Positions 21,008 to 37,134 of a stretch of 64,000 nt of DNA are shown here, piece after piece. Each line of letters opens with the position of its first letter. The stretch's first letter is position 1. Source of the DNA: Pontixanthobacter gangjinensis (GTDB lineage: Bacteria; Pseudomonadota; Alphaproteobacteria; Sphingomonadales; Sphingomonadaceae); contig NZ_WTYS01000001.1 in NCBI RefSeq assembly GCF_009827545.1, forward strand, positions 434,001 to 498,000, in the 5' to 3' direction. Made by a program: the position numbers and the translations under genes. The notes below the pieces were generated by a model that worked only from the letters and a program-made list of their open reading frames with translations, did not search any database and was not told the origin of the DNA.

Positions 21008-21120
21008 CCGCCCCGAAACGGGACAGCCACGCTTCAAAGCTTGGGTTTCTGCGCGATGCGATGGTAGATTTTCGGTTAACGCCGGGAATCGACCGGCTTT
21101 CTGTTGCCAAGGGGAATGCC

Positions 21121-22044
21121 ATGAAGGCCCGTTATCTCGTCTCGATCAGCGCTTCGGCTTGCGCACTTGTGGCCGCAACGCCGGCACTGGCTCAGCCTGA
21201 AATGACCTATGAGCAGAAACCGTATGAATATGCTCAAGCAGCTCCAGCGCAAGGTCCACAGCCACCACCCGTCACCTATCGCCAGGAGCCTGTGGTTCAG
21301 CCAGCACCTCAGGCAATGCCACAACCGGTCGTGTATGAACGCGAATATGAGGCGGAATACGAGTATAGCGATGCTCCGCACGCCAATAGGCCGCACCGGG
21401 CCCTTCATGCCATGCCCCACCACGCAATGCCCGCCCATGGGATGCCTCCAATGGTGGCAATACCGCATCACGCCTATCCTCAGCACCCTATACCCCATCA
21501 AGCGCAGTTTGATCGCGGCGCATGGATTGAAGAATGCGTTACGCGTTATAATGGCGGTCAGTTGCGCCGTGACCGGAATGGCAACATCATTGGCGGCCTC
21601 GTCGGCGCGGTGGCTGGCGGTGTAATTGGCAACCGAGTTGCTGGCCGCGGTGATCGTTTGGCTGGTTCGCTAATCGGCGCCGGAGTGGGCGGCCTTGCCG
21701 GACTGGCGGTCGGCGCGGCTATCGATGCGGCAACCGACGATCGCGGACGTGACAGCGAAGAAGCATGGGCGTTCTGCGAAGACTATCTTGCTCGCTATAC
21801 TCACCAGAACATGGGTGGTTTTGGGTACTATGCACAGCCTATGATGCTGGTGCCAGTCATGATTCAAGTGCCCCAACACGCGGTTGTGCGTGAATATGTG
21901 ACTGAAGAAACTGTGCATGTTCAGGTTGTTACATATGAGGACGTGCCAGCACGCCCCGTGGTCAAGCCAGCGCCGCAACCAGTCAAACGAGTGCCCATCA
22001 AGAGCGTTCCAACCAAGCGCGTGCGCTCTGTCAAAGGCAATTGA
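21121..22044 (+). CDS. Glycine-zipper 2TM-domain envelope protein
   Basis: 307 residues. The start at 21121 follows AAGGGG and begins a clear signal peptide (MKARYLVSISASACALVAATPALA). A long His/Pro/Met-rich segment (about 80-140: HAMPHHAMPAHGMPPM) could bind metals. A Gly-zipper (GGLVGAVAGGVIGNRVAGRGD...GLAGLAVGAAI) at about 160-205, as in the Rick_17kDa/SlyB families, probably inserts in or contacts a membrane. The C-terminal region is Val/Pro-rich and basic. It should be in the periplasm or outer membrane. The His-rich region is unusual for this family. Confidence 0.8.
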   Translation: MKARYLVSISASACALVAATPALAQPEMTYEQKPYEYAQAAPAQGPQPPPVTYRQEPVVQPAPQAMPQPVVYEREYEAEYEYSDAPHANRPHRALHAMPHHAMPAHGMPPMVAIPHHAYPQHPIPHQAQFDRGAWIEECVTRYNGGQLRRDRNGNIIGGLVGAVAGGVIGNRVAGRGDRLAGSLIGAGVGGLAGLAVGAAIDAATDDRGRDSEEAWAFCEDYLARYTHQNMGGFGYYAQPMMLVPVMIQVPQHAVVREYVTEETVHVQVVTYEDVPARPVVKPAPQPVKRVPIKSVPTKRVRSVKGN

Positions 22045-22147: not shown

Positions 22148-22912
22148 ATGGGCCGCGCGCAAACCAAGACACAATCGCCTCAGGCAACGTGCGAATCTCT
22201 GCCAAGCCAGGGGTTCGCGCCGCGCGTTTTATTGGCCGAAGACAATCCGATTGTTGGTGAACTCATGAGCATGGTTGCCCGCCGAACGGGGATCCATCTG
22301 GTACATGCTGATAATGGCCAAGAGGCCTACGAGATGATCCTTGCCAAGAAAGCGCAGGGAGAACCTTTTACCCTTCTACTGGCTGACGCGATGATGCCGG
22401 TGCTAGGTGGGGTGGAGTTGACCCGGCGCTTGAGGGCGCACGGCTTCAGTCCGGAAGAACTGCCGATCATTGCAGTTACCGCAGCAACGGCGCAGGACGA
22501 ACTACGCGAATATATGCAAGCGGGGATGCAGGCTTATCTGGCAAAACCAGTGAGCCTGGCAGATTTTTCGGCAACCATCGAAGCCTGGAATCCATCGGAA
22601 GTCAGACATGTTCTCGCGCCGAACCAACCGCTATCTGCTTCATTGCGTCTTCGCTACAAGCTGCGCAAGGCTGAAACGATCGAAATTTTAGAAGCTGCCG
22701 CCAAGGCGAAAGAGCCAGATATTGCGGCGATCTCGCAAGTACGGCACATGCTCCATAGGCTGGCCGGAACAGCGGGTTCGTTTGGCGAGCAAGACCTAAG
22801 CAGGGCTTCTGCGCGTTGCGAAACCATGCTGATTGAAGCCACGCCGGATGAATTTGGGCTACGATTGCAAGAATGCCTAAAGCTGATGAACGAGGCGGGG
22901 CTGGCATCATGA
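22148..22912 (+). CDS. Receiver-HPt phosphorelay protein
   Basis: 254 residues. A receiver domain spans about 25-145, with Asp32-type acidic pocket (LLAEDNP), phospho-acceptor Asp80 (LLLADAMMP), Thr111 and Lys133 (AYLAKPV). A C-terminal histidine phosphotransfer domain has His203 in MLHRLAGTAGSFG. This is the tail of a hybrid kinase without the kinase, so it should accept phosphate from a separate protein. It overlaps the next gene by ATGA, so it and the outer-membrane barrel are made together. The pair converges on the PgsBC-like operon, whose own sensor lacks a phospho-histidine, so cross-talk is possible but unproven. Confidence 0.87.
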   Translation: MGRAQTKTQSPQATCESLPSQGFAPRVLLAEDNPIVGELMSMVARRTGIHLVHADNGQEAYEMILAKKAQGEPFTLLLADAMMPVLGGVELTRRLRAHGFSPEELPIIAVTAATAQDELREYMQAGMQAYLAKPVSLADFSATIEAWNPSEVRHVLAPNQPLSASLRLRYKLRKAETIEILEAAAKAKEPDIAAISQVRHMLHRLAGTAGSFGEQDLSRASARCETMLIEATPDEFGLRLQECLKLMNEAGLAS

Positions 22913-23820
22913 CGCCAGCAACTAATTTCTATAAAACATTGGCTTGGACTCTTTCGGCCATCTTCTTATGCGCGGCAAACCCTGCCAGCAGCAAAGACGG
23001 TATTGAGATCAGTGGCGATCTTTCTGTCCGCGCCGTTCAAGCCGAACGCGGTGTGTTTCAAGGCGAAGATGTTGAGAGTTCAGGTGCCGGTGCCAGGGCA
23101 GAAGCAGGCTTCGAATGGACACGAGGTAAAACCGAAATACAGTTTGACCTTTCGGCCACCGTATTTGATTTCAGCGACGAAAACAGAGAGACCCGAGAAA
23201 GCGCCAGCGCCGGGCTGACGATAGCCCATTCGGTCAGCGATACCGTGACATTGGCCGTCTATGCACGGCGATCGGAGAACATCGTTACGCTTGAATCTCG
23301 TAGCGCCGATCAAACGAGTGCTGGTGCTGAGTTCCAATATGAAGACGATGACAATCGCATCCGTTTGCGTGCTGAATACAGAACCCGCGACTATGACGGA
23401 ACCACAACTTCTTCCGGCAGTGGAATGCGCTTTGATGCCCAATATAATCGCCGCTTTGGCAGTTGGCATTGGGCGCGGATTGATCTGCGAGCCGAGGATA
23501 TTGACAGCGACAATCCCAGACGTGGGTACGAGCGATACACGGCCAAATTCAGCTACAGCCTGCCGATCGCCAAAAGACTCCGCCTCCGCCCTGAAATATC
23601 GATGCGAGCGTGGGAATACGATAATCGTGCGGTGCCGGATGGCCAAAATGACATCTTGAGAAAGGACTCGATGGTAGCTCCGGAAATCGGATTGGCCTAC
23701 GGGAAACTAACCGGATTTTATGGTCGTGCCCGAGCTAGTTATGAGTTTCGCAGCTCTAATGATCCCCGCTATCGCGAAGACGCGCCACGCTTCGAACTTT
23801 CTATCGGTTATCGCTTTTAA
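22909..23820 (+). CDS. Outer-membrane beta-barrel protein of unknown function
   Basis: 303 residues from the ATG at 22909, which overlaps the previous stop (ATGA). A signal peptide (TLAWTLSAIFLCAANPASS) is followed by alternating amphipathic strands rich in Arg, Asp and Tyr, ending in SIGYRF, the C-terminal aromatic signature of BAM substrates. I count roughly 12-14 strand-like segments. I do not recognise the family. The gene ends inside the 3' end of the PgsB-like gene on the other strand (20-base overlap). This tail-to-tail lock with the polymer-synthase-like operon makes a role as its outer-membrane partner attractive, but this is inference. Confidence 0.75.
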   Translation: MTPATNFYKTLAWTLSAIFLCAANPASSKDGIEISGDLSVRAVQAERGVFQGEDVESSGAGARAEAGFEWTRGKTEIQFDLSATVFDFSDENRETRESASAGLTIAHSVSDTVTLAVYARRSENIVTLESRSADQTSAGAEFQYEDDDNRIRLRAEYRTRDYDGTTTSSGSGMRFDAQYNRRFGSWHWARIDLRAEDIDSDNPRRGYERYTAKFSYSLPIAKRLRLRPEISMRAWEYDNRAVPDGQNDILRKDSMVAPEIGLAYGKLTGFYGRARASYEFRSSNDPRYREDAPRFELSIGYRF

Positions 23821-26800
23821 CCAACCAACCGGACAAACGATTACGTATGGAGTCCAACGCGCTTGTCATCCAGCCACCCTTCTGCCGTGCTGTGATATAT
23901 TTCAATTCGACTGCTGCGCGGCCACTGCTGATTTGCTCGGCAATTAGAGCCTCATAAATGCGATCTGCTGCCCGTTTGCGATTTACAGCATCGCCGCCGT
24001 CAAGGATACCTTCTGCCAGCTCGAGGAAATATTTCTTCGGTTTGCCAAGAAATTCCCAGCCTTTTCCGTTCTCGGGTTCGTCTGTCTGACTAACCGACTG
24101 ATAAGCCGCCTGCTGTTCAATCAGCCGTGACAAGATCGTTTCAAGCTGAGGCTTGCCAAATGCTTGTGGCAGGTTTGGGCGCTCCGCGAGACGGGCAATT
24201 GTTTCCTTTACTTTCGTATCGCTCAGCGCGCCAAATTCCTGAAATGCGGCCAAAGCAGCAATACCTTTTTCGCTGGTGGCAGCATCGCTATCTAACGCCT
24301 GCTCGCAGGCTTTATTCGCCGCCTCCCAGGCTTGGAACCGGTAAACAAGATCAAGCCCTGTGCCCTTGATATTCTGCATACCCATGATCCGATTGACCAA
24401 GCCAGGGGGCGAATTGCGAGCTATCAGGCGGACAACAGCCTCCCCCTTGATATAGAAATCGCGGACAGGGACGATCTTGGCCATGAAGACGCGCTTCAGG
24501 AAATCGCGAACTTCAGCCAGATGCTGGTCGGCAGCTTGCGATGAAGAAATTGCGCCGCGCAACTTTTGGTAGTCTGAAAAAAATCCAGCCTGTTGCTCGA
24601 AATATGCGGCGATGTCATCGCCATGCTCGATGGAGTGGTCTTTGAGGATTTGCGCAATTTCCTGACTTTCAAAAGCCTTGGACAGAATAGCGGGATCGGC
24701 GGTTCCCCCCACCCCGTCAACCATCGCTTGTAATCGGCCTAACAATTGCTCTGGATTGATCGGAACGCGCTGTCGCCGCACCAATTGGTCGAATTGCTCA
24801 GCTGCAGTCCCTAAACCATCCTCCAAGTTTACGGACAACGCGTAAGTGTCCCATTCCTCGGCGATAAAACTTACCAAGCCTTCAATATTCGACCCTATCA
24901 GAAAGTGCCGGTCAACCGAGATGTCGTTGACCAACAAACGGGCGAACACCCTCGAACGCGGGACACGATCAGCGCGGTTATTGACCACCGTAGTGACAAA
25001 TATTTCGGGATCTTTGGCCAAATCATGCTCAGCGAATCCCATGCGGTCCCAATTGCCCATTGCACCGAACCGTTCGTTGGCAGAATTGCCCATTACATAC
25101 TCAAGTATACGCCCGTCTATCAGCGAACGCGGATAGGTTTTGAGCACACCTAGATCGGCAACGACCCGGTCGGACATTTCCTTGATGCAGTAATCGGCTT
25201 CCAGCCCCAGCTCGTCGCCCATCGCCGTTACAAGCGCAATATTGTATGGGTGCTCCTCATACGGAAAACGGTCCAAAAGGCGCTGATGGATCAAACCCGC
25301 TTGTTTCCAATTAATTGCCCTAAGCCGCGTCCCGACCTTGTCTGATCCCTCTTGCAGGATTGGCAGCATCTCTTCTTCGGTAGTCAGCAAGATTGAATCT
25401 TGCGGTATAAACTCGCACATGACCTCGGGGATATTCCGGCCCGCGGGTCCTTGTACGTCTTCATGGTCGGGGTAAGTATTCGTTATCGTGCCAATATCGT
25501 CTCGCATCCAATCCTGCTGGAGAACGTGCACATAGGTGGGGTTAAGCCCCATACATTCCCAAAGGAAAACGCGCGCCTTTAGTCGGCGCGCAATCTTGAT
25601 CAGGGAATATTGCTCCCAGATCGTCGCCTTGTCATAGGGCCTGAATAGGAACATCTCGGTTAGTTCACCAAATGACTCGCCATTCAGGAACATCGCTTCA
25701 CAGCCCGTTGTCTTCGAGACAAGCGGAGCGCCAAGCGCATTGATAAGCCCGGCCTTAAGCCGCTCGGTGCCGGATTTTCCGCGCGTGCCCCAGCCACCTA
25801 GCATTAGCGGAATTTCTTTGCGAACGCGCTTGGCATGATAGCCGAGCACGATGTGCCGTCCAAAAAACCACAAACAGACAATCACGAGGAACAACGCCAA
25901 TTGCGCAAGCGTGTTGGCGAAAACTGTGGCGAAATATGCGACCGCATTGTCCCAGAAAATTGGTGCTGCGGCCAAAATTCCTCCAGCGCTAAAAAAGCGG
26001 GTTACGCTGGTGTCAGCCGGGACTTCCGGACCCGATTCACCGACTACGTACGCGTCCGAGTGCGGCGCAAATTCCAATTCCACGCCGTATTTTCGCAATG
26101 CCGCGCTATATTCACCACCAGTGCGATTGCGTAGATCTGCCAATGCCGCAAATTTCTCACTGATTGACCAGAAGGTTTTGAACCGCCGCAGAACTCCCGT
26201 TGGCGGGGTGATTGTAGTGATGCCTTCGCTTGTATAAACCTTTATAGGCTTACCCAGATCAATCGCGCCCAGCACCTGATCGAGCAACGGAACAAAGTTA
26301 CGCCAATTGCCATCCTCGCTCTGGAAAAGTGGTTCGCCAGGGACCTTGGTCGGGGCCAACTCTGCTAGCCGGGCGGATGGCGCCGAGATCGTTCCGCGGT
26401 AAGAGCGCCCTATAGTATGAAGGAACGCCTGCCGCTTGTCGGTTGCGCTGATCCTAAGTTCAAACAATGTCCGCCACAGTCGGCGGCTGAATTTGTCGCC
26501 CTTCTGCAATTTTGGCCTGGAACCTTGTGTCAGATCAAAACCGAACCCCTGCTGTGCGAGCACTGCCATTACCCGCCCAAGCTTATCGGGATCCTCGAAG
26601 ACATGCTCTTGTAAGTCAGACGCCAGGCGCGACTGCCCTTCTTTGAGGCGTGCCGAATGCGCAGTTAAGACGGCAGCAATTGCTCGTGCCTCTTTGTCTG
26701 ATAGCAACCATAGCTTCTCAGATGCTTCGCTCGCCCATCGCCGGATCTTGGGGCTTTCAATGCGTTGTTTCACTTCCGCCAGTGAACTGCGCAGAATCCC

Positions 26801-27982
26801 GATGACCTCGCTTGAACGGTCAGGGATTGATGCCGCAGCCCACTGGCCCAAGCCAAAGGCCCCGTCGATAGCAATTCTTAGAACAAAGGTGTCCTCATCA
26901 CGCGATAGAACGCGCACGAGATGCGGGAGGTAGGCGTCAATGCCGCAAGCATCAGCCGTGGCTGGAACGTCAGCGAACACCATCGCTCTTACTTGTGGAT
27001 CGCGATCGACACGCAAGCGCGCTATGTGTCCGTGCAAGATCTTGGGAGGTAACAGAGGCAGGCTTTCCGCCACGGCTTGGCGCACGGCACCATCGCGGTC
27101 GTTCACCAATCGCTTCAGAAAGGTGTCGAGTTTTTTGTTCTTGCCGGCGAATGTGCACAGCAAGCGTGCAATATGACGGCGTACGAATATGCGATTATCT
27201 TGTCGTGTCGGGCTCCCGCGATCACTTGTGGCTGCAAGCCGCTTCTCCAAAACAGAAATCAACGATTGAGGAGACAATGCCAGTAACGTGCTGATGGCAT
27301 CACACTGGGCCCAAGCAGCTTCGTCCGCGTCCAAGGCGACCCTGCGCGTGTCACGGACGGCCATATCTATCCAAAAACCTGAGAGCCGCTTGGTGGATTT
27401 CTCAGCCACCAATCTAAGCGCACGATGCGCCGCCTGCCTTACACGGCTATCACCCTGATATGCTCGCGCTTTTTCTAGGAGAGTAGCTAGGTCGCGGCTA
27501 AACAATTCCGATGAGTGCTCCAGTTCATTACCGGCAAGCAATTCACCCGCCTCATGTCCTGCCCGCTCCAGTGCGAATGCCAGCGCTCTTTCGCGTTCGC
27601 CAACTCTGCGACGGTATCGTTCCGTGACCGCGTCCCCATCGAAAAAATTACTCAGCGCTTTTGCGTCTCGGCGCAATTGCTGGCGATCCGCACCCAACTT
27701 ACCAGCAAAGTCTAGAATAGCAGCGTTGCGCTCGGAATCATCTTGGGCGTGACTGAAGCGGGCGCTGTAAAGTGCCGCAAGTTCGTGCATTGTCGCAATC
27801 TTTGACAATTGGGATGTGGCAAAACGAACAAGTGTCGTCAGATGCACTCCGCCAGAATTATCATCCGCATCGGTTGAGGCGGCGGCGATCTCATCGATAA
27901 TGTCTTGGTATACCCCCAGCAACAAGGGAGCGATATCAGCGCTAAGCGTGCCACGAAGACCACTGTGAATATTATCCGTCAA
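23801..27982 (-). CDS. HEAT-repeat protein fused to a PgsB/CapB-type amide ligase
   Basis: 1393 residues. The N-terminal 650 are soluble and helical, with HEAT-like repeats at about 225-400 (FLKRLVNDRDGAVRQAVAE, HIARLRVDRDPQVRAM). A membrane segment lies at about 686-707. The ligase domain (about 720-1045) matches Bacillus PgsB motif by motif: GTRGKSG P-loop at 732-738, KTTGCEA at 757-763, ECMGLNP at 809-815, NTYPDHEDVQGP at 835-846, NNRADRVPRSR at 1001-1011, FLIGSNIEG at 1027. PgsB is a Mur-ligase-like enzyme that builds poly-gamma-glutamate with ATP. A further 340 residues of unknown type follow. Bacillus PgsB has about 390 residues, so this is a large fusion. The polymer made is unknown. 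It is last in the operon, with ATGA overlap. Confidence 0.88.
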   Translation of the reverse strand: MTDNIHSGLRGTLSADIAPLLLGVYQDIIDEIAAASTDADDNSGGVHLTTLVRFATSQLSKIATMHELAALYSARFSHAQDDSERNAAILDFAGKLGADRQQLRRDAKALSNFFDGDAVTERYRRRVGERERALAFALERAGHEAGELLAGNELEHSSELFSRDLATLLEKARAYQGDSRVRQAAHRALRLVAEKSTKRLSGFWIDMAVRDTRRVALDADEAAWAQCDAISTLLALSPQSLISVLEKRLAATSDRGSPTRQDNRIFVRRHIARLLCTFAGKNKKLDTFLKRLVNDRDGAVRQAVAESLPLLPPKILHGHIARLRVDRDPQVRAMVFADVPATADACGIDAYLPHLVRVLSRDEDTFVLRIAIDGAFGLGQWAAASIPDRSSEVIGILRSSLAEVKQRIESPKIRRWASEASEKLWLLSDKEARAIAAVLTAHSARLKEGQSRLASDLQEHVFEDPDKLGRVMAVLAQQGFGFDLTQGSRPKLQKGDKFSRRLWRTLFELRISATDKRQAFLHTIGRSYRGTISAPSARLAELAPTKVPGEPLFQSEDGNWRNFVPLLDQVLGAIDLGKPIKVYTSEGITTITPPTGVLRRFKTFWSISEKFAALADLRNRTGGEYSAALRKYGVELEFAPHSDAYVVGESGPEVPADTSVTRFFSAGGILAAAPIFWDNAVAYFATVFANTLAQLALFLVIVCLWFFGRHIVLGYHAKRVRKEIPLMLGGWGTRGKSGTERLKAGLINALGAPLVSKTTGCEAMFLNGESFGELTEMFLFRPYDKATIWEQYSLIKIARRLKARVFLWECMGLNPTYVHVLQQDWMRDDIGTITNTYPDHEDVQGPAGRNIPEVMCEFIPQDSILLTTEEEMLPILQEGSDKVGTRLRAINWKQAGLIHQRLLDRFPYEEHPYNIALVTAMGDELGLEADYCIKEMSDRVVADLGVLKTYPRSLIDGRILEYVMGNSANERFGAMGNWDRMGFAEHDLAKDPEIFVTTVVNNRADRVPRSRVFARLLVNDISVDRHFLIGSNIEGLVSFIAEEWDTYALSVNLEDGLGTAAEQFDQLVRRQRVPINPEQLLGRLQAMVDGVGGTADPAILSKAFESQEIAQILKDHSIEHGDDIAAYFEQQAGFFSDYQKLRGAISSSQAADQHLAEVRDFLKRVFMAKIVPVRDFYIKGEAVVRLIARNSPPGLVNRIMGMQNIKGTGLDLVYRFQAWEAANKACEQALDSDAATSEKGIAALAAFQEFGALSDTKVKETIARLAERPNLPQAFGKPQLETILSRLIEQQAAYQSVSQTDEPENGKGWEFLGKPKKYFLELAEGILDGGDAVNRKRAADRIYEALIAEQISSGRAAVELKYITARQKGGWMTSALDSIRNRLSGWLVKSDNR

Positions 27983-28863
27983 CGGCCAGCCACATCACGC
28001 TTGAGACCGCTTTCAAGACAGGCGCGGAACGCAGCGCGTAAATCACCATCGTCGATAAGCGATTGCCTCGTCTCAGCTGCTATCTCAATATGCGCGAACC
28101 CCTTAAATCCCTCCGCACGCAGCACCTGGCCTTGTTTGTTTTGCAGCGCACCCAGTTCTTTTGATTCCATCGGGTAAACCGCGACGCGCAGCGGCCGAAG
28201 ATTGATCGAAAGGCAATCCGCCAAATCTAGCAATTGGCTGGATGGCTCATCACTACCATCGCTTACGATAATGTCGGCATTGCGGGCCACAGTAGTTTCG
28301 CGCCGCATTCGATCGAATCCATGAAGCTGAACAACCCGCCCTTGCGGGTATTTCTTCGCGAAAGCACTGGAAAAAGCGGTCAAATAATGCGTTTCATGAC
28401 GCGCCGGATCGCCCCCTCCTTTGCAATCTTTTGTTGGACGGCGGGGCGCAGAATTCCACGCGACAGCAGCGGCTTCACCTTCGCCAAAAAGCGCAATTGC
28501 GAGCGTGCCAGTGTGCCGGTCAGACGCACGGTGAGGGGCAGTCAGCGCCAAACCAATCGGCGGTCTGCGGCGCAGAAGATACCCGCCTCGCCCAAGGCAT
28601 TCCCCTTCTTTTTCACGATAAAGTGTGCTGTTTGGCCAGTCAGAAATATTTGTCTTCAGTAATCCCGTGGGAATCTTAGCGCCTGGCTTTTCGGCCAGCA
28701 GGTCAAGGAAGGATGCCTCGGCTCGGTCAAACTCGGCTGCCGTCGGCACAGCAAATGCTGCGCTGTCTTTCAGCGGACGAAATAGCTGATAAGCTAGGGT
28801 AGATGCCACAATAACCATACTGACAATCAGAATTCCGCGCGAGAATCGCGGCATTGCTCTCAT
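27979..28863 (-). CDS. Membrane-anchored putative amidohydrolase in the PgsBC-like operon
   Basis: 294 residues. An N-terminal anchor or uncleaved signal (ILIVSMVIVASTLAYQLF) sends the rest to the periplasm. Motifs recall zinc amidohydrolases of the N-formylglutamate amidohydrolase/poly-gamma-glutamate hydrolase type: TAPHRASD at 108-115, HETHY at 156-160, QLHGF at 179-183 and HIEIAAETR at 258-266, offering His, His and Glu as metal or catalytic residues. Cys89, Cys147, Cys217 and Cys282 may form disulfides. It sits between the 257-residue gene and the ligase with ATGA overlaps on both sides. A role in cutting or releasing the polymer fits, but the family assignment is only a motif-level guess. 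Confidence 0.6.
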   Translation of the reverse strand: MRAMPRFSRGILIVSMVIVASTLAYQLFRPLKDSAAFAVPTAAEFDRAEASFLDLLAEKPGAKIPTGLLKTNISDWPNSTLYREKEGECLGRGGYLLRRRPPIGLALTAPHRASDRHTGTLAIALFGEGEAAAVAWNSAPRRPTKDCKGGGDPARHETHYLTAFSSAFAKKYPQGRVVQLHGFDRMRRETTVARNADIIVSDGSDEPSSQLLDLADCLSINLRPLRVAVYPMESKELGALQNKQGQVLRAEGFKGFAHIEIAAETRQSLIDDGDLRAAFRACLESGLKRDVAGR

Positions 28864-29633
28864 TGCTCCTCCCCGTCATCGCTAATTGCCTTTCCTTCAT
28901 AGACAACATGCACGGAATAATCGCGTCCATCGATACCCATAGGGCCAAGAACGCGCCAACGATTGGTAAAGAGATTGGCGCGCTCCGAATTTGTTAAGAA
29001 TTCTGGCGGTAAGGCGTTGGCCTTCGCAAGATTGGCTTGTTCTTCCGGACTACGGCGGCGAAAAGCTGCCAAAGCTGTGGAACCAATAAACGAAACACGT
29101 TCATAAGTCCTCACATCAATCTTCTGCACCCCTTCACCCAATTCGATTGCCGAGATTTCAATAGAGGAGGCGGCCGGATCGCTAACCAGAACCGCATCAT
29201 CTTGCAGGGCAATAAGCCCCTTATCTTTCCCGCGAAATATCCGCACCGGGCGCTTATACGGAAGAAGTTTGTCGGGCCGCAAAGAGAGCGAAAAGATGTC
29301 CCTATTGTAGATCAATGCGCCCTGTGCATCCTTCAACGTCACGCGATAACCGTATGTCCAATTGTCTCGTTCTTCCCAAGATTCTGGGGCAATAACCGGC
29401 TGAGAGATTATTCGGATTAAGCTCGCTGGCTGTGTAAAGGCAAATCTTGTCGGAGTTTCCGAAGACAACCGGTAAACCAATGTCCGACTGGCCGCTGCCA
29501 GTTCTTCGCGCGTTTCTTCTGGTTTCGGGACAACCAAATCGGTAATTTCATCACCAAAAACAGACCAAGCAAGCAATAAAGCGAAGCCTGATCCGCAAAC
29601 AGCCGCGATCACGGTAAGGTCGCGCAAGCGCAT
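28860..29633 (-). CDS. Membrane-anchored periplasmic protein of unknown function in the PgsBC-like operon
   Basis: 257 residues with one N-terminal membrane segment (LTVIAAVCGSGFALLLAWSVF) and a mostly beta-rich periplasmic part (RFAFTQPASLIRIISQP, YGYRVTLKDAQGALIYNRDIF). No catalytic motif or known domain is recognised. It starts with a TAATG overlap against the PgsC-like gene (base 29633) and ends with ATGA into the hydrolase-like gene. In Gram-positive systems small PgsE/CapE peptides and the larger PgsA/CapA are the other subunits; this protein resembles neither. It may be a structural subunit of the synthase complex. Confidence 0.7.
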   Translation of the reverse strand: MRLRDLTVIAAVCGSGFALLLAWSVFGDEITDLVVPKPEETREELAAASRTLVYRLSSETPTRFAFTQPASLIRIISQPVIAPESWEERDNWTYGYRVTLKDAQGALIYNRDIFSLSLRPDKLLPYKRPVRIFRGKDKGLIALQDDAVLVSDPAASSIEISAIELGEGVQKIDVRTYERVSFIGSTALAAFRRRSPEEQANLAKANALPPEFLTNSERANLFTNRWRVLGPMGIDGRDYSVHVVYEGKAISDDGEEQ

Positions 29634-32212
29634 TAGTCAGTCTCGCTTTTGTCAGGATTTATCATCAAGACCGCGGCGCGCTTATTTTGCGAGTGATTCA
29701 GATACCGCAAAGCAGTCAGTGGAAATGCCTCATATCCAGCGAAAGCCTTGCTACGCTCCGCAAATGCAGAACTGAAACCAGCGTTGAATGCATATTGCCG
29801 AAGTCGCCCCCTCTCTTCTGCAGAGATGCCAATATGCAAAGGTATGATGATGACTTTTGGGTCGCCCTTCAGCGGGCCAGCCCTTTGCGGGAAGGGGCGG
29901 ATTTGTAACGTTAGCGCCGGCCTGTCTTCCAATTGACGAATGACAGTTTGGTTGATCACACCGAAAGCGTGAGATTGCTTTCCGTCATACTGTAGCTCTC
30001 TTGGCGCCAACAAAACGGAGCCCGCGCCACTTCCCCACTGCAAGGACAGAGCGGCGCTGACAAATTCCATGGCGGCGACCGGTTCTGCCGCACCTTCTTG
30101 CCGCAATTCGCGTCGCAGAAACCCCAAAATTGTTGTGTCACCTCCTCCAGAAGCGGTGAACAAATAAGCACCATCGCCTCCATCCCTGGAAGTTAACAGC
30201 CAATTGGGACGGTCTTCAATCGCGCACATCTCCAGAGCGAGCCCCAGCATTCGCGAATTATTGATAGAAACGGAAGGGGCAACGCTAGCTGCCAAATCTT
30301 TCAGTAGCGGCTCAGCCACTTCAAAACGCAGGAATGCCAATTCTTCGACATCGGTCAGGGTTTCGGTGATCGGACTTTCCGTGGGGATTACGCATTGCCC
30401 GAGCTCATTAGAATCAGGAATCAGCGCTTTGTTCAGTTCGTTAATCGAAGCAGGCGTTAGAACGGCCCGCGACGCCGCACGCGAGCCGTCTTCATTTTGG
30501 TCAATTCTTGATACGTCAAACCTGGTAACGAGCTCTGGTATCGCTTTACGTAACTCTGGAAGGTTTGTGGTTATTGCAGCGCGATCTACAAACGACACAA
30601 TCGGTATCTCGTTCGAGCCATCAAAACCGACTAGCATTTCATTGCTCGAGGCGGATTGCCGAAATGTCTGAAGGACGGTCTGAGCAGGAATGGAGCCGGG
30701 CGCGCGCGGCGCAGTAAAGACCAGCCAGCGCGCATCAGTTAACTCAGATATCCGCTGCGCAGCATGCGCCAAACCGGGCGTCAGAGTGGGGTCGGGGACG
30801 GTAATTGCCAAATTCTCTTCCGCCGCCGGATCATACAACAGAACATCCCGCCCTATCCCGTCTTCCCTTCGTAAGGCGACTATGCCATTCGACAACACTT
30901 CGACCCGCCAGCCACCGGAAGAAGCGACAGCGCCAGCCTGTACTGGTGGCAAACCAGCTTCGAGCAACTCTATTGCATCACCAAGAGCTCTGGCGGATTT
31001 AATGCTAAGTGCCGCTGTTTCGCTTCTGACGACGCGCGAATATGCATCACCGACGGCAGCCACGATAAACTCATCTTGCCGTTTGATTGCCTCGGCTGCT
31101 GCATCGTCGGTGCTTCTTGTCCCTCCAAGCGCCGCCTGGGGCAGAATTAGGGCAAGTAGGAAACCTGCAAGATTACCCATAGCGGCCCCGACAAAAGAGA
31201 CCTGCAAGGTCGATCGCATCAAGCGTGGGAAGATGTTCTTGTCGTGGGCCTTGATCGCCAAGAGTGTCGATAGGAGATACCCAAAACCATAAAAATCAGT
31301 GGTTTTGACATCTAATGCAAAATACACGATCGCGTGGCCAACAATCAATTTCAATGCGAAGCTGATGTTGAAAAACAACAGCATCTTGCGCCCACCCTCG
31401 ATCGTCATATTTTCAAGCCAAGGGGTTTTGAGCAGCATTCTGGCAATTGCGTAAATGACAATAGCCTCACCAAAAGATGCAAGGATTTTTGTCGGTTGAT
31501 ACCATTGCAGGGCAATCAGCGCCGGGATCAAGATTCCCGAGAAATCCCAGCCATATTTAACGTTCATATGCGACGCATAAAGGGCGGTGAGAACCAAAAT
31601 CATATAGGCTTTGGGACTCGCCAAGACCGAACTGGCCAACCCTTCGTATAGGTAAGAAACGCCGCTGATCCGGAAGTTTGTGAATTCCATCAGACCATAT
31701 CTGATGATCAACAACGACAACGCAGTCACCACGACTAGCGAGAACATTCCGCGTATTATTCCAGGCTTCCAGAACTGGTTTGCCATGAGCGATATGATGA
31801 CGAGGCCGAAGCTTTGCATATCGCTGCGCCAGTCAAATTCTCGGTTCCAATTTTGCGTCATCCATTCTGCGACTTCTGGAAGCACAAACCCGTCTAATGT
31901 CATCCGAACCGCGACGCTGGCTAGGATCAAGCCCATAAAACGGTCACGGCCGAACAGGCTCGGCCATTTGCCGCGTCCAATTTTCTCTGAGAACACCCAG
32001 ACAATTGTATAGGTCAAGACTGCTTCGATAACGATGACACCGGCCGCCAAGGGCTTCACAATCAAGAGCGGGACCAAGTAGCCTGGAACAACCAAGCCGG
32101 ACAAGACCCAGCCAAAGCGGAGGTTGAAGAAACACAGAACAAAAACGCCAACCCAAACGGTGGTAATAACCGAACTGGCCAGGCCTCCCTCAGGGAAAAT
32201 GGGAAGGATCAT
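29633..32212 (-). CDS. Duplicated PgsC/CapC-like membrane protein with large soluble tail
   Basis: 859 residues. Residues 1-360 contain two tandem PgsC-like units. The first has FGWVLSGLVVPGYLVPLL at about 33-50, then an AVLTYTIVW segment and a second half with SFGLVIISLMANQ, just as in Bacillus PgsC. The second has YGWDFSGILIPALIAL at about 220-235 with FGYLLSTLLAIKAHD. About 10-11 membrane helices are likely. Residues 370-859 are soluble, probably periplasmic, and of unknown fold, possibly two related halves. Bacillus PgsC has about 150 residues, so this is a duplication plus an added domain. PgsC is thought to form the membrane part of the polyglutamate synthase. The gene starts 22 bases after the response regulator. 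Confidence 0.85.
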   Translation of the reverse strand: MILPIFPEGGLASSVITTVWVGVFVLCFFNLRFGWVLSGLVVPGYLVPLLIVKPLAAGVIVIEAVLTYTIVWVFSEKIGRGKWPSLFGRDRFMGLILASVAVRMTLDGFVLPEVAEWMTQNWNREFDWRSDMQSFGLVIISLMANQFWKPGIIRGMFSLVVVTALSLLIIRYGLMEFTNFRISGVSYLYEGLASSVLASPKAYMILVLTALYASHMNVKYGWDFSGILIPALIALQWYQPTKILASFGEAIVIYAIARMLLKTPWLENMTIEGGRKMLLFFNISFALKLIVGHAIVYFALDVKTTDFYGFGYLLSTLLAIKAHDKNIFPRLMRSTLQVSFVGAAMGNLAGFLLALILPQAALGGTRSTDDAAAEAIKRQDEFIVAAVGDAYSRVVRSETAALSIKSARALGDAIELLEAGLPPVQAGAVASSGGWRVEVLSNGIVALRREDGIGRDVLLYDPAAEENLAITVPDPTLTPGLAHAAQRISELTDARWLVFTAPRAPGSIPAQTVLQTFRQSASSNEMLVGFDGSNEIPIVSFVDRAAITTNLPELRKAIPELVTRFDVSRIDQNEDGSRAASRAVLTPASINELNKALIPDSNELGQCVIPTESPITETLTDVEELAFLRFEVAEPLLKDLAASVAPSVSINNSRMLGLALEMCAIEDRPNWLLTSRDGGDGAYLFTASGGGDTTILGFLRRELRQEGAAEPVAAMEFVSAALSLQWGSGAGSVLLAPRELQYDGKQSHAFGVINQTVIRQLEDRPALTLQIRPFPQRAGPLKGDPKVIIIPLHIGISAEERGRLRQYAFNAGFSSAFAERSKAFAGYEAFPLTALRYLNHSQNKRAAVLMINPDKSETD

Positions 32213-32233
32213 CCACCCATTCCTGAGGTTAGG

Positions 32234-32620
32234 CTACTTCTTTGTTTCATTGGCTTTTTTCAAAACCGACTGAACAGTTTCGACTATGAGGTTCGTGCTT
32301 ACTGGCTTGCGGATCATGCCAGCAATCCCGAGGTCCTGACCCAATTCCAATATTTGAGCGGTTACGGAAGCAGACATGACAACAATTGGCGGCGCATCGG
32401 GAAATCGGCTTGGAACTTGGCGAAGGAACTGGATGCCATCGATTTTTGGCATAACCAAATCGAGTAAGATCAAATCAAACTGACGCTTGGCCAGCATTTC
32501 GAGCCCAGCTTGGCCATCATGTGCAATCGTCGCGGCAAACCCCTCAAGCTCAAGCAGTGAAGCAATCATATCGCACAGCAGATCGTCATCATCGATGATC
32601 AATATCGATTTGCCGTTCAT
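32234..32620 (-). CDS. Single-domain response regulator
   Basis: 128 residues, a bare receiver domain. Acidic pocket at Asp10-13 (LIIDDDD), phospho-acceptor Asp54 (LILLDLVMP), Ser83 and Lys105 (MIRKPV) are all present, so it should be phosphorylatable. There is no output domain; it should act by protein contact. The ATG at 32620 overlaps the stop of the CHASE2 gene (ATGA), so the longer reading from 32695 is rejected. It comes 22 bases before the PgsC-like gene, placing it inside the polymer-synthase-like operon, perhaps switching the complex on or off directly. Confidence 0.88.
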   Translation of the reverse strand: MNGKSILIIDDDDLLCDMIASLLELEGFAATIAHDGQAGLEMLAKRQFDLILLDLVMPKIDGIQFLRQVPSRFPDAPPIVVMSASVTAQILELGQDLGIAGMIRKPVSTNLIVETVQSVLKKANETKK

Positions 32621-35223
32621 CCTATCCGCCTTAATTGAATGTTGAAGCGGTATCCCGTGCCGACGGCACTCCAATAGGAAACTCCGCCCCGCCATGCCAG
32701 TGCCTCTAAGATACCGGCTGCAATAATTTGGTATTCGGATGGCACATCTTTAGCAGATGCATCGAAGGACTCGCAAAGCCGCTCGAACGGAATGCCAAAG
32801 CCACCTTGAATTCTAATCCAGCTCTGATCCGGCTGTTCATCGAGCAAAATTTTCACCGTCCCGCCAAGCGTGGTGTCCAAGATCACCAGCCGCAGCATTG
32901 CCTCTACCATATCCGAAAGCATTAGCGGCTCGGCCATAGTGAAGCCGCTGATTCCCGGCAGATCAGCGTCGATTTGAACCTGCATTTCATTGGCCAGCGG
33001 ACGGGCCCGATCTATGGCTTTGGTCACAGCCTTAAGCGCGTCAATTGGATAGCAGGGCCCAGGCGTATCAACTGGTGAATCGCTCAACAATTGAGCCACT
33101 GTTTCGAGCCTGTCAGTGGCCCTAGTGGCAACATCCCGAATGCGTCCGATCACTTTGGCCAACGCTGTTGGCTTTAGCCTAGGATCGGCCGCTATGTTTG
33201 CGCCCAAGCCAATGGCTTCCAAATCATTGCGCAGTTGTTTGTCGATAAACATACCGACTGCCAGTCGGAGTTCGGCAAGCTGATCAAGGTCGCTAATATC
33301 AATTGCCTCGATAACAATGACTCTTTCCCATGCCCGGTCTTGCCTGGTGGGGGCAGCAACTCGCAGAATTCGTTGCCGTGTTCCGATTTCTCGCATCGGG
33401 ATGCGCATTTCCCCTCCATTCAGCAGGATATCGGAGATTATCCGCTCTATTTGTTCGATCTCAAGTTGGGTAAATGCGGCAATCACATCGGTCAAATTTG
33501 AATCGGCCAGACTAATTTCTGCCTCTCCATACAAATTCGACATCCGCGTATTGGATTGAATTGGGTATCCGATCATATGGAAAATCATGACCGCCGTATT
33601 GAGCGAATCCAATCCATTACGGATTTGTTCGCCTTGGATGGTGATCAAATTGGCCGCGCTTGCCACCCGGTCATCAAGATATTTGGCTTGTTTGCGAACA
33701 CCGGAACCAGACGACAGGTCGCTGCGCCAGCGTTGGATATCCTTGATGCTCGACGCCATAGCTGAAGCAATCCTGCCGATGCCTACTGAGCTTGCGCCAC
33801 TGGGCAGCTCAAAGAGCCAATACAAAGGCGCAGAAGAAGTGCCGAGCGAGGCCAAATAGGTATCTTGGGTCCATTGAGGCGCCAGGGAGCTGGCTGGTAC
33901 TGGAGAACTGGACCTATCGGCCCGCCTAAGCAGCTGAGTGCTGTGACGCCCTGTGAGGGCTAGCTTCGCTTGGGATGCGGATTGCACGCTAAGAATCTCG
34001 GGGGCTTGGTTTCGGTAATGCGTAAAAAGGACCATCTTAGGGATTCCCAAGATTTTGGCTGTCGATCCGAAGAATTCGATGAGCCGTCCATGATCTTGAA
34101 TTGCCGAACGGCGAAAAGACAGGTTGATTGCTTGCTCAAGGATTTCACCCAACCTGCGATCCTGCAACTTCTCTCGGCGTAACAGGTACCAGATTGTCAC
34201 AATTCCCACACCAGCAAGCATTGCTGATGCGGGCAACAGTACATTGGCGTATTGCAACGCCACCCAGCTGGCGCCGAGTACCCCAATAGCCACAGCCGCT
34301 GCGACCGGAAGAATTAGCCGCTTTTCGGCAAAGATATCTTGGGCTCCTCGGGCCAAGGCACATGCTGCAAGAAGGCTTAGAAATGTCAATAACATACCAG
34401 CTGGACGAACTGAGCGGCCATCGAGATATGCTTGTGTAACATAAGCACTAAAAACGCTTGCCCGCATTTCTCCCGTTGACGGATTCATCGAAGTTGCAAG
34501 CCGTCGCTCGGCATGGTCGCGGGGTGGGACCACGAGGGCAGTGAGGCCAGCCAATTCACGACCTTGGAAGTTCTTTGCCAGCAACTGGCTGGCAGATATC
34601 CTCGGGATGTTCTGACTGCGCGGCATGCGGACGTAGGTTGGCGCGCCATCCGGGTCGATATCTGCCAGCGCAGATTCAAATAGCGGAAGCCTACCTTCTG
34701 CACCTCCAATTCCGCGCCAATGCCGTCTGAATATCCCATATTCTGGAGAGGTTACTAGCGCAGCGCCGAATGTGACATTATCGGCTTTTTCGTCGCTTGA
34801 GGTAACAAACTCCCATGCGCTGCTTGCGGGCCGCTTTCTAGCCTTTCGCGAAATGACGACTGGAAGTTCAGTCGCCATTGAAATGGCCTGGTTCCCCGGA
34901 TCACTGGCGAATCCAATCCGACTAATACCTGCCTCAGACGCGGCTGTGATCAGATCCTGATAAGCTTGACCGTCTCGCCGAACGAAATCGGCATCTTGTT
35001 CGATGATCACGACTGCAGGTTTTTGTCCGGATTCGGACCGCGTGACCATATCAAACAGCAATCCGTCCGCGATCTGGAATGAGCCCGACGAGGCCAATCC
35101 AAATAATGCAATTGCCGCCAAAACAGGCACAATGATCGCCGCAAACCGGTCGAAATTCATCAGCGCCGCGGACGAAAAGCGCTGCAGGAGTGTTCCGTTC
35201 TGAACCTGGATATCAGAACCCAC
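32617..35223 (-). CDS. CHASE2-domain sensor with degenerate histidine-kinase module
   Basis: 868 residues. A first membrane segment (about 27-45), an extracytoplasmic CHASE2 domain (about 50-270), then three further segments (about 275-347), the normal CHASE2 topology. GAF/PAS-like regions follow. The C-terminus looks like a histidine kinase, but the helix expected to carry the phospho-histidine reads DKQLRNDLEAIGL at 661-673, with Lys where His should be. The ATPase N-box lacks its Asn (EAMLRLVILD near 774), while glycine-rich ends (GGFGIP 807-812, GTGYRFNIQL 855-864) remain. I therefore call it a probable pseudokinase or signal scaffold. It leads the six-gene operon. Confidence 0.83.
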   Translation of the reverse strand: MGSDIQVQNGTLLQRFSSAALMNFDRFAAIIVPVLAAIALFGLASSGSFQIADGLLFDMVTRSESGQKPAVVIIEQDADFVRRDGQAYQDLITAASEAGISRIGFASDPGNQAISMATELPVVISRKARKRPASSAWEFVTSSDEKADNVTFGAALVTSPEYGIFRRHWRGIGGAEGRLPLFESALADIDPDGAPTYVRMPRSQNIPRISASQLLAKNFQGRELAGLTALVVPPRDHAERRLATSMNPSTGEMRASVFSAYVTQAYLDGRSVRPAGMLLTFLSLLAACALARGAQDIFAEKRLILPVAAAVAIGVLGASWVALQYANVLLPASAMLAGVGIVTIWYLLRREKLQDRRLGEILEQAINLSFRRSAIQDHGRLIEFFGSTAKILGIPKMVLFTHYRNQAPEILSVQSASQAKLALTGRHSTQLLRRADRSSSPVPASSLAPQWTQDTYLASLGTSSAPLYWLFELPSGASSVGIGRIASAMASSIKDIQRWRSDLSSGSGVRKQAKYLDDRVASAANLITIQGEQIRNGLDSLNTAVMIFHMIGYPIQSNTRMSNLYGEAEISLADSNLTDVIAAFTQLEIEQIERIISDILLNGGEMRIPMREIGTRQRILRVAAPTRQDRAWERVIVIEAIDISDLDQLAELRLAVGMFIDKQLRNDLEAIGLGANIAADPRLKPTALAKVIGRIRDVATRATDRLETVAQLLSDSPVDTPGPCYPIDALKAVTKAIDRARPLANEMQVQIDADLPGISGFTMAEPLMLSDMVEAMLRLVILDTTLGGTVKILLDEQPDQSWIRIQGGFGIPFERLCESFDASAKDVPSEYQIIAAGILEALAWRGGVSYWSAVGTGYRFNIQLRRIG

Positions 35224-35383: not shown

Positions 35384-36361
35384 TTAAATATCGCCACCAG
35401 TGAGGCGTTGACAGATTAGGTCAAGCTGATCCAACGTGCGATAGCGGATTGTCACGGCCCCAGAACGCGGGTCGGTATCGGTCTTGATCTTAACCGAAAG
35501 GCCAAGAAATTCCTCCAAATGGGCCTGAACCGCAGCAATATCTGCATCTTTGGCGGGATCGCGCGACGGTCTGGCTTGCCGGCGAGCGGTCTCACCATGC
35601 TGTTCCTCACCACCGCGTACAAGTTTTTCGACTTCCCGGACCGATAGCTTTTTGGCAACCGCTTGCTTGGCCAATTCGCCAGCATTCTCGTTGCCGATCA
35701 ATGCCCGCGCGTGCCCCATGGTCAGCGCACCATCTTCAACCAAATCAAGGACATCAACAGGAAGTGCCAACAAGCGCTGGATATTAGCGACGTGACTGCG
35801 AGATTTATCAACTAAATTAGCAATCTCGGCCTGTGTCATCGATTCCTGATCGGAAAGCCGCTGATACGCACGCGCCTCTTCGACCGGATTGAGATCTTCG
35901 CGCTGAAGGTTTTCGATCAAAGCAAGTGCCATCACCTCGCGCTCGTCCAACTCGCGGATGATCGCAGGAATAGTGTGTAACTGGGCCTTTTGCGCAGCGC
36001 GCCAGCGACGCTCACCGGCAACAAGCTGATACCGTCCGCCATCGACCGGGCGAACTATAATAGGCTGAATGACCCCGCGCGAGGCGATCGAGGCTGCCAA
36101 TTCATCCAAAGCGGTCCCATCGAACTTGGTTCGGGGCTGGCCCGGTAGTGGCTCGATTAGCGAGATTGACAATGAAGCCAAGCCAGAGTTTGGCGCGCCC
36201 CCACCTTCGTCTTGCTGCGCAGCCGAGTTTCGCTGATTGGGATTTTGCCGGACCAGCGGCTCTTCACGGCGGGTTTCGCCAAGCAACGCCCCTAGACCGC
36301 GGCCAAGCTTCCGCTTCTTATCAATAGGCCTGGTTGCGGATTGATCCTGTTCGCGGCTCAT
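35384..36361 (-). CDS. parB: Chromosome-partitioning protein ParB
   Basis: 325 residues. A conserved N-terminal ParA-contact motif (KLGRGLGALL, about 18-27), the CTPase box with GERRWRAA at 116-123, a helix-turn-helix (MTQAEIANLVDKSRSHVANI, about 178-197) and a C-terminal dimerisation domain. It binds parS sites, of which three are visible 0.8-3.4 kb upstream, and spreads as a CTP clamp. It overlaps the parA stop as ATGA. The 160 bases to the CHASE2 gene hold nothing I can name. Confidence 0.97.
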   Translation of the reverse strand: MSREQDQSATRPIDKKRKLGRGLGALLGETRREEPLVRQNPNQRNSAAQQDEGGGAPNSGLASLSISLIEPLPGQPRTKFDGTALDELAASIASRGVIQPIIVRPVDGGRYQLVAGERRWRAAQKAQLHTIPAIIRELDEREVMALALIENLQREDLNPVEEARAYQRLSDQESMTQAEIANLVDKSRSHVANIQRLLALPVDVLDLVEDGALTMGHARALIGNENAGELAKQAVAKKLSVREVEKLVRGGEEQHGETARRQARPSRDPAKDADIAAVQAHLEEFLGLSVKIKTDTDPRSGAVTIRYRTLDQLDLICQRLTGGDI

Positions 36362-37134
36362 GCGGCCTTCCTCTTCTCAGGCAAACGTCCAATCAATTCC
36401 CGCGCCAGTGCGATATAAGCCCGGCTCCCGGCACAGGAGTGATCGTAGACCAAGGCAGGCAGTCCATGGCTTGGTGCTTCCGAAAGGCGGACATTGCGCG
36501 GAATTACCGCCTCAAACACCAAATTTCCGAGACAATCGCGCACATCGTCCGAGACTTGGTCGGTCAAACGATTGCGGCGGTCGAACATGGTCAGAACGAC
36601 ACCGATAATTCCTAAGTCCGGGTTGAAGCGCTGCTGAACCTGTTCAACGGTTTTGAGTAGCTGGCTTAGCCCCTCGAGCGCAAAGAATTCACATTGCAGC
36701 GGAACCATCAAGGTATCTGCAGCGCCAAGGGCGTTCAGCGTCAAGAGGCCGAGCGATGGCGGACAATCGATGAAGCAAATATCGTGATCGTGATGATTCG
36801 CCAGAGCAGTACCGAGGCGACTTGTGCGGTCCTGAACCGATACAAGCTCAACTTCGGCCCCGCTCAAATCGACTGTCGCGGGAACTACGTCTAGACCGGG
36901 AATGGTGCTCGGTTGGGTGCAATCGGCAATTGCCATCTCGTCGATCAAAACGTCGTAGCTCGAACGTGGGCGGTTGCCACTCTCAATACCCATGCCAGTT
37001 GAAGCGTTTCCTTGCGGATCAAGATCAATCAGCAGAGTCTTCCAGCCGGTTGCAGCCATCGCGGTGGCGATGTTGATGGCTGTGGTGGTTTTACCAACTC
37101 CGCCCTTTTGATTGGCAATTGCGATTGTGATCAT
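36358..37134 (-). CDS. parA: Chromosome-partitioning ATPase ParA
   Basis: 258 residues of the small chromosomal ParA (Soj) type, lacking the N-terminal DNA-binding domain of plasmid ParA. The deviant Walker A box KGGVGKTT is at 10-17 and Walker A' (CFIDCPPSLGLL) near 116. With ParB and parS it moves the new origin to the opposite pole, where PopZ (encoded at 60.0-60.5 kb) usually anchors it. ATGA overlaps on both sides tie rsmG, parA and parB together. Confidence 0.97.
   Translation of the reverse strand: MITIAIANQKGGVGKTTTAINIATAMAATGWKTLLIDLDPQGNASTGMGIESGNRPRSSYDVLIDEMAIADCTQPSTIPGLDVVPATVDLSGAEVELVSVQDRTSRLGTALANHHDHDICFIDCPPSLGLLTLNALGAADTLMVPLQCEFFALEGLSQLLKTVEQVQQRFNPDLGIIGVVLTMFDRRNRLTDQVSDDVRDCLGNLVFEAVIPRNVRLSEAPSHGLPALVYDHSCAGSRAYIALARELIGRLPEKRKAA

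Follow-up and report, generated by a model that had tools for sequence, protein, structure and literature searches.

A PgsBC-type locus of a Gram-negative bacterium as a predicted trans-envelope system for a gamma-glutamyl polymer

Background

The closest described relatives of the locus analyzed here are the PgsBCA(E)/CapBCA(E) systems of Bacillus, in which a PgsB-type ATP ligase and a PgsC-type membrane protein are encoded together. The same pairing is encoded in a stretch of 64,000 nucleotides of Pontixanthobacter gangjinensis DNA (hereafter the window; G000:C1:434001-498000, within a single-contig genome of 2.89 Mb). In contrast to Bacillus PgsB, the ligase protein of the window (HEAT-PgsB) carries approximately 690 additional N-terminal and 350 additional C-terminal residues, while its PgsC is duplicated and extended by two fused hydrolase-fold domains; the operon has no PgsA gene and is accompanied by its own barrel and signalling genes. 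We propose, with a probability of about 0.6, that this locus encodes a trans-envelope machine for making and exporting a predicted gamma-glutamyl polymer, most likely poly-gamma-glutamate (gamma-PGA), in Gram-negative bacteria. It is predicted to work like a gamma-PGA synthase; membership of PgsBCA is not claimed because PgsA is not co-encoded and the scores lie below the equivalog cut-offs.

Fusobacterium nucleatum is reportedly the first Gram-negative bacterium shown to make polyglutamate. PgsB and PgsC homologues were counted by BLAST in 250 species of 58 genera, according to the accessible part of PMC4497714. As in the window, PgsBC-type genes occur in a Gram-negative phylum in the CapBCA operon of Cloacimonadota (PMC13082233), a group for which gamma-PGA genes are also mentioned in the accessible text of PMC8542988. 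Unlike the genes of the window, however, those of Cloacimonadota are described in the available portion of PMC13082233 as CapB, CapC and CapA in the organisation typical of Gram-positive producers. CapB and CapC of lucinid symbionts (PMC11168628) and the gamma-PGA polymerase open reading frames (ORFs) of Novosphingobium PP1Y (PMC4059872) are already annotated as gamma-PGA synthase in the accessible parts of these sources, and can be compared with the present locus by gene names and counts alone. A full-text literature search, whose reach excluded most subscription papers and all preprints, found no description of this architecture.

Results and discussion

Organization and conservation of the locus

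A check of the ORFs in the window recovered the six minus-strand genes, with coordinates unchanged, that were first reported in a reading of this DNA made without database searches (the sequence-only reading). The locus comprises eight genes: these six and a convergent plus-strand pair that adjoins them (22148-23820). The eight genes, and the domains discussed below, are as follows.

22148-22912, plus strand: receiver-Hpt protein, 254 aa (PF00072, E-value: 1.8e-19; PF01627 Hpt, E-value: 1.5e-6)
22909-23820, plus strand: outer-membrane beta-barrel protein, about 303 aa, ending in GYRF (barrel profiles of the family)
23801-27982, minus strand: HEAT-PgsB, 1393 aa (TIGR04012, E-value: 2.3e-50, residues 699-1042)
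24857-25888, minus strand: PgsB ligase domain with the invariant GTRGKSGTERLKA stretch (profile match and alignments)
27979-28863, minus strand: predicted membrane-anchored hydrolase, 294 aa (AlphaFold2 model, fold matches and conserved residues)
28860-29633, minus strand: anchored protein of 257 aa, of no known family (one N-terminal hydrophobic segment)
29633-32212, minus strand: predicted double PgsC with two degenerate hydrolase-fold domains, 859 aa (PF14102, E-value: 5.1e-40)
30398-31105, minus strand: degenerate hydrolase-fold domain 1 of the PgsC protein, residues 370-605 (hhalign)
29636-30397, minus strand: degenerate hydrolase-fold domain 2 of the PgsC protein, residues 606-859 (hhalign)
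32234-32620, minus strand: single-domain receiver, 128 aa (PF00072, E-value: 4.3e-24; ATGA overlap with the CHASE2 gene)
32617-35223, minus strand: putative CHASE2-type membrane sensor whose kinase-like part lacks the phospho-acceptor histidine, 868 aa (PnpS model and relatives)

The sequence-only reading described the six genes as locked by ATGA or TAATG overlaps with a single 22-base gap. Read from the DNA, the genes are indeed chained: the CHASE2 and receiver genes overlap in ATGA (which places the receiver start at 32620 and gives a length of 128 aa), the PgsC and 257-residue protein genes in TAATG, and the 257-residue protein and hydrolase genes in ATGA. The gap, between the receiver and PgsC genes, is 21 bases long, and the last junction, between the hydrolase and PgsB genes, is TTGA, with TTG as the PgsB start codon. 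In the convergent pair, the receiver-Hpt and barrel genes are joined by ATGA, and the barrel and PgsB genes overlap end to end by 20 bases.

All eight genes are found together, with set and order conserved, in each of the ten intact near relatives that were fetched (L020-L029), which argues that this arrangement did not arise by chance. The convergent pair lies downstream of the operon in most of them and upstream in L024, L028 and L029. The genomic surroundings also vary: parA and parB adjoin the locus in L020-L023 and not in L024-L029. Because the eight genes stay together despite the shifting position of the pair and the changing surroundings, they appear to form one travelling unit. The operon proposed from the sequence thus stands as an ordered and conserved set that co-occurs in related genomes, with the correction that the locus holds eight genes rather than six.

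HEAT-PgsB

Residues 699-1042 of the 1393-residue protein score 171.4 bits with TIGR04012, compared to an NCBIfam equivalog cut-off of 222.7 bits. No Mur ligase or folylpolyglutamate synthase family is listed for this protein at E ≤ 1 in Pfam or NCBIfam, and we therefore reject these enzymes as its nearest relatives; the sequence-only reading had named a closer placement with folylpolyglutamate synthase or MurC-F as the outcome that would speak against a PgsB-type ligase. Together with the PgsC match described below, this result bears out the identification of a PgsBC-type synthase in a Gram-negative bacterium.

The protein consists of a helical, HEAT-like N-terminal part, a hydrophobic segment at about residues 681-715 (by hydropathy), the ligase domain and a C-terminal part. 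The HEAT match in the window protein is weak (PF13646, E-value: 0.032, below the cut-off). The HEAT and ligase parts are encoded by separate adjacent genes in six of the 59 loci named in this study (L047, L048, L054, L056, L058 and L087), so the HEAT part can be considered a module of its own.

The double PgsC protein and its hydrolase-fold domains

The 859-residue protein matches PF14102 in two stretches with 137.1 bits against a cut-off of 27, and with 69.9 bits lies under the NCBIfam equivalog cut-off of 96.45. An hhalign comparison aligned its two membrane halves (probability 85.5%, E-value: 5.7e-6), and the protein is thus predicted to hold two CapC copies, in agreement with the duplication noted in the sequence-only reading.

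The C-terminal half is predicted to be two tandem, degenerate copies of the fold of the adjacent hydrolase. Using profiles built from 56 hydrolases and 57 PgsC proteins, hhalign matched residues 370-605 (probability 96.5%, E-value: 7.6e-10) and residues 606-859 (96.5%, 7.2e-10) to the hydrolase and the two domains to each other (98.0%, 1.5e-13), while three control comparisons gave probabilities of 0.1-0.2%. Similarly, a search with the hydrolase profile matched the PgsC proteins of L061 (E-value: 1e-6) and L066 (3e-5). Based on the profile comparison, this half of the protein is not unique to PgsC. None of its histidine columns reaches half of the 57 rows (the best has 23), so its metal site is very likely lost. 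A basic stretch precedes the last membrane helix ahead of these domains and, by the positive-inside rule, would place them in the periplasm. A viral-contig search with the PgsC protein confirmed no viral contig.

The predicted 294-residue hydrolase and the 257-residue protein

An AlphaFold2 model of the 294-residue protein, built from 11 sequences, has a predicted local distance difference test score (pLDDT) of 88.8. The fold matches are led by 2odf (Z 13.2), followed by polymer-bound YndL/PghL, a gamma-PGA hydrolase of B. subtilis (5onj, Z 12.7), the N-formylglutamate amidohydrolase 2q7s (Z 12.4), phage PghP (3a9l, Z 12.4) and, in fifth place, the gamma-PGA hydrolase of phage PM1 (Z 12.2). 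The matches to PghP/PghL-type folds (Z 12.2-12.7) extend across 181-182 residues with a root-mean-square deviation of 3.8-4.0. When 63 homologues were collapsed to 56 distinct ones, H111, D115, R141, D152, Q179 and H181 were invariant in all 56, and H258 and E260 were kept in 55, with a gap in the remaining row. The fifth gene of the operon, originally called hydrolase-like, is well described by this fold and by its conserved His/Asp/His/Glu set. CRISPR endonuclease rows (E-value: ~0.8) and further rows at an E-value of ~2 in the PDB searches with this protein were dismissed as chance matches.

In PghL, His41, Glu46 and His102 are zinc ligands and Glu165 is a further residue required for activity, and 2odf and 2q7s are the nearest reported folds after PghP (accessible text of PMC6506827). 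H111-x3-D115, H181 and E260 of the window protein are comparable with these four residues, the mapping being one of pattern and not of superposition. We infer that the 294-residue protein is an active zinc amidohydrolase. It shares its fold with the PghP/PghL (YndL) enzymes (PF05908, MEROPS M86) and has a comparable pattern of His/acid/His and Glu, but it differs from them in having no Pfam match and in that its acid is an Asp after three residues rather than a Glu after four. It also shares its fold (Z 12.4-13.2) with the N-formylglutamate amidohydrolase family (2q7s, with 2odf as a neighbour in fold), but without a PF05013 match at E ≤ 1. In addition, it is predicted to be membrane-anchored and occurs in synthase loci, whereas Bacillus PghP/PghL are phage-derived according to the accessible parts of PMC4497714 and PMC6506827.

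The 257-residue protein has a single N-terminal hydrophobic segment that, as in the hydrolase, follows basic residues. No Pfam match at E ≤ 0.1 was found for any of the 11 members of its family. In L076 (12781-14439), a 257-type protein and the hydrolase are fused as one protein, which suggests that the two may act jointly and face one side of the membrane. The 257-type proteins of L061 and L081 are longer by approximately 470 to 610 residues that match no known family; the hydrolase fold was sought in the long C-terminal part of such distant proteins and rejected (hhalign probability 0.1-0.2%).

The putative CHASE2-type sensor

No CHASE2 match was obtained with Pfam at E ≤ 1 for the window sensor. 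CHASE2 was detected in one of 11 near members of its family (E-value: 6.6e-4) and in five of ten distant homologues at E ≤ 0.01, with four of the ten over the cut-off. A PDB search with a profile of this protein found nothing at E ≤ 0.1. Residues 509-815 match the model of the PnpS histidine kinase (E-value: 3.5e-6), and the H-box reads FIDKQLRNDLEAI, with a lysine at the phospho-acceptor position. After exclusion of homologues with less than 60 bits or 540 residues, the sensor alignment held 50 rows, 45 of which have the kinase region; it is lacking in L069, L081, L083, L084 and L085, and four rows without a kinase part are from Pseudoalteromonas. The window sensor and its near relatives are among the 41 of 45 rows with no H-box histidine. 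Histidine occupies the acceptor column in L065 and L089, both Desulfobacterota (Desulfobacteraceae), and lies one column away in L068 and L072, both also Desulfobacterota. A second alignment, of the C-terminal sensor parts alone, gave the same H-box columns. The Gly-x-Gly of the ATP site is retained in all 45 rows.

Based on these alignments, the window sensor is most likely a pseudo-kinase, whose ancestor may have been an active kinase of the Desulfobacterota type; L065 and L089 may encode a sensor that is an active kinase. An ordinary two-component sensor was rejected for the window because the phospho-acceptor histidine is missing. The two-component control that had been suggested for this operon is thus unlikely to be a plain switch, given a kinase-like head without its histidine. 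Phosphate would need another source, via an Hpt domain. A dash recorded for the receiver in L023 and L025 stems from the assumption that genes lie on one strand; the receiver is present in both.

The convergent pair and large envelope proteins

The sole Pfam match of the window barrel protein is SlipAM (E-value: 0.084). At E ≤ 0.1, OMP_b-brl matches seven of the 11 members of its family (best 7.1e-8) and BBP2_2 three (best 1.5e-7), and all 11 end in G(Y/F)RF. Among the 29 near-type loci described below, the barrel gene is present in 25, that is, in all those with sufficient flank: L036, L043 and L055 are short contigs, and L051 ends just after the PgsB gene. The receiver-Hpt gene is present in 24 of the 29, being missing from L074 as well as from the loci without a barrel, and in none of the 30 distant loci. 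Two distant loci have a large frame between the hydrolase and ligase genes. In L061 (16567-22404) it encodes 1945 residues with an OmpA domain (PF00691, E-value: 2.7e-20), a domain of the type that binds peptidoglycan; in L081 (16080-20336) it encodes 1418 residues with no good Pfam match.

Distribution

A contig scan with two peptide patterns identified at least 59 loci. Of these, 29 belong to Erythrobacteraceae, Sphingomonadaceae and relatives (near-type). The 30 distant loci include Acetobacteraceae, Silicimonas, many Gammaproteobacteria (five Pseudoalteromonas among them), Desulfobacterota, Bdellovibrionales, Silvanigrellales, Acidobacteriota, Planctomycetia, Hydrogenedentes and Nitrospinota, and also L076 (lineage not stated); the lineages listed by name are all diderm. 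The CHASE2 gene is present in 26 distant loci, the 257-type gene in 22 and the hydrolase gene in 23, the other seven being on contigs that end inside the PgsC gene.

Seventeen carrier genomes, representing 16 of the 30 distant loci and L074, were searched with the PgsB profile, and all were matched. In 16 of them PgsB is one long frame of 1276-1652 residues (one with an internal stop), while G684 encodes the ligase part in a gene of its own and carries the HEAT part, with two stops, on a different contig. One of the carriers, Sulfidibacter corallicola (G677), has two HEAT-PgsB genes, one of which lies some 10 kb away from a CapA gene. In the order of the window organism, 13 of 296 genomes have matches and 11 have the intact HEAT-PgsB form; the other two are G013, with a short canonical-type PgsB, and G294, with a relic of the locus (L030:4942-8233) that retains a PgsB frame without the ligase core and a shortened hydrolase. 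No PgsC, 257-type, CHASE2 or barrel gene was found near this relic. Among 398 sampled genomes of the phylum, PgsB matches at E ≤ 1e-20 occur in seven, each time in a frame of 1109-1431 residues. No such match is over the canonical cut-off, and six of the seven genomes also match the double PgsC. As these PgsB matches are all in very long frames and none reaches the canonical cut-off, the PgsB listed for such genomes may mostly be the machine described here.

Neighbouring genes in the window

The operon comes after parB (PF02195) at window positions 35384-39622, where parA, gidB-like and gidA-like genes were named by eye. On the other side, a 160-aa gene (GAF-like by eye) and one for a 327-aa protein adjoin the locus (20525-22044). 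Both are kept in L020, L021 and L023, and only the 160-aa gene in L022; they seem to belong to the site rather than to the system.

Proposed function and alternatives

In the proposed trans-envelope machine, HEAT-PgsB would join glutamates using ATP on the cytoplasmic side, and the double PgsC would form the inner-membrane part and the way out for the chain. The two degenerate hydrolase-fold domains of PgsC, on the periplasmic side, would grip or guide the chain. Trimming or release would fall to the anchored zinc hydrolase; the 257-residue protein may be a scaffold, and the outer-membrane barrel would serve as the exit. The CHASE2 pseudo-kinase would sense an envelope signal and, together with the single receiver and the receiver-Hpt protein, set the activity of the machine, with phosphate for this control coming from another kinase. 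In this scheme, the homologies of the ligase and PgsC, the set and order of genes, the fold and conserved residues of the hydrolase, the degenerate domains, the loss of the kinase histidine and the barrel family are computational results, and the substrate, the zinc, the export direction, the location of the domains and the roles of the accessory parts are inferences. The sequence-only reading had envisaged an envelope-bound or secreted poly-amino-acid or other amide-linked polymer. The PgsBC core agrees with that view, and because the hydrolase fold points to a gamma-glutamyl polymer, this now appears more likely than amide-linked polymers in general.

Several observations weigh against this proposal. 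Both the ligase and PgsC score under the NCBI equivalog cut-offs, so the substrate may differ. The hydrolase fold is shared with M17 aminopeptidases (Z 11.5) and carboxypeptidases (~11), in a range of Z 10-11.5; neither PF05908 nor PF05013 matched the window hydrolase or 19 distant members at E ≤ 1, and no credible PDB chain was matched by its sequence. With just 11 near sequences, the comparison of PgsC with the hydrolase was not significant (E-value: 0.28); the PgsC protein is also modelled poorly as a whole (pLDDT 60), with weak fold matches (Z ~5; domain 2 against 2odf, Z 5.0). None of the 30 distant loci has the barrel, and a different large envelope protein can take its place there; a role of the barrel as exit would thus be lineage-specific at best. 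The four Desulfobacterota sensors with a histidine at or next to the H-box position indicate that the pseudo-kinase state is not universal.

A further point of this kind concerns PgsA. No PgsA/CapA gene was found among the proteins of the operon with Pfam, as the sequence-only reading had stated, but the genome of the window contains one CapA-family gene elsewhere (PF09587, E-value: 2.5e-55, 680 aa), so that strict absence of PgsA is rejected for this genome. The gene lies at G000:C1:1670056-1672095 (L019:8057-10099), between bamD-like and recN-like genes that were named by eye, and a few genes upstream of it is a CHASE2 adenylate/guanylate cyclase (L019:3368-5665; PF05226, E-value: 5.7e-59; PF00211, E-value: 2e-19). 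A bamD-like gene also neighbours the long CapA in five other carriers (L102, L103, L105, L106 and L107), and in L028 the polymer locus itself adjoins a bamD-like gene. The locus could therefore be an ordinary PgsBCA system to which this protein supplies the missing part in trans, an explanation that we regard as quite improbable. Within the order, seven of 11 carriers have a long CapA relative, compared with 12 of 285 non-carriers (19 matches with E < 1e-95; 18 other genomes have partial matches); the Fisher p-value of 3.9e-7 is too small because the genomes are related. In L060 and L079, CapA directly adjoins the PgsC gene. Against this association, long CapA occurs without the locus in those 12 non-carriers, and 12 of the 21 carrier genomes tested (the 17 searched genomes and four near carriers without long CapA, which are not a random sample of carriers) gave no PF09587 match at E ≤ 1e-3. 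Four of the 12 (G182, G192, G160 and G124) are 99-100% complete; the other eight have no completeness figure. The locus thus exists without CapA, and in genomes that have CapA the latter may assist it.

It is also conceivable, and in our view unlikely, that the ligase adds tails of gamma-glutamate or another amino acid to peptidoglycan, a lipid or another acceptor in the envelope, with the hydrolase editing them and no free homopolymer being formed. The sub-equivalog score of the ligase, its large extra N- and C-terminal parts, the OmpA domain in the large protein of L061 and the fact that the hydrolase fold also serves small N-acyl-glutamates are consistent with such tailing. The presence of an outer-membrane barrel in the near family agrees with export instead, and to our knowledge PgsC-type proteins are known only from polymer synthesis and export. 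That barrel gene, adjoining the operon, likewise argues against the very improbable explanation that the polymer serves to store glutamate inside the cell or in the periplasm and is neither a surface nor a secreted product, as do the hydrophobic N-termini after basic residues, which suggest that the hydrolase and the 257-residue protein face outward. For a store speak the possible recovery of glutamate by the hydrolase and the placing of the lucinid symbiont CapB and CapC under storage compounds in the accessible text of PMC11168628.

Conclusions

Judged by homology, the core of the proposed trans-envelope machine recurs across numerous diderm lineages, and many carriers apparently manage without PgsA, the usual third partner. 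A broader interpretation, which we offer tentatively and with slightly less than even confidence, is that these loci form a separate, widespread class of PgsA-independent trans-envelope gamma-glutamyl machine in diderms, in which PgsC has captured two dead hydrolase copies that handle the chain and, in most lineages, control comes from a dead kinase with a receiver/Hpt relay that acts on the enzyme rather than on transcription. The locus offers a candidate part for each step in moving gamma-PGA across two membranes. The capture of degenerate hydrolase copies by PgsC provides a concrete and testable idea of how PgsC may handle the chain, and the carriers without PgsA bear on whether the reaction needs PgsA at all.

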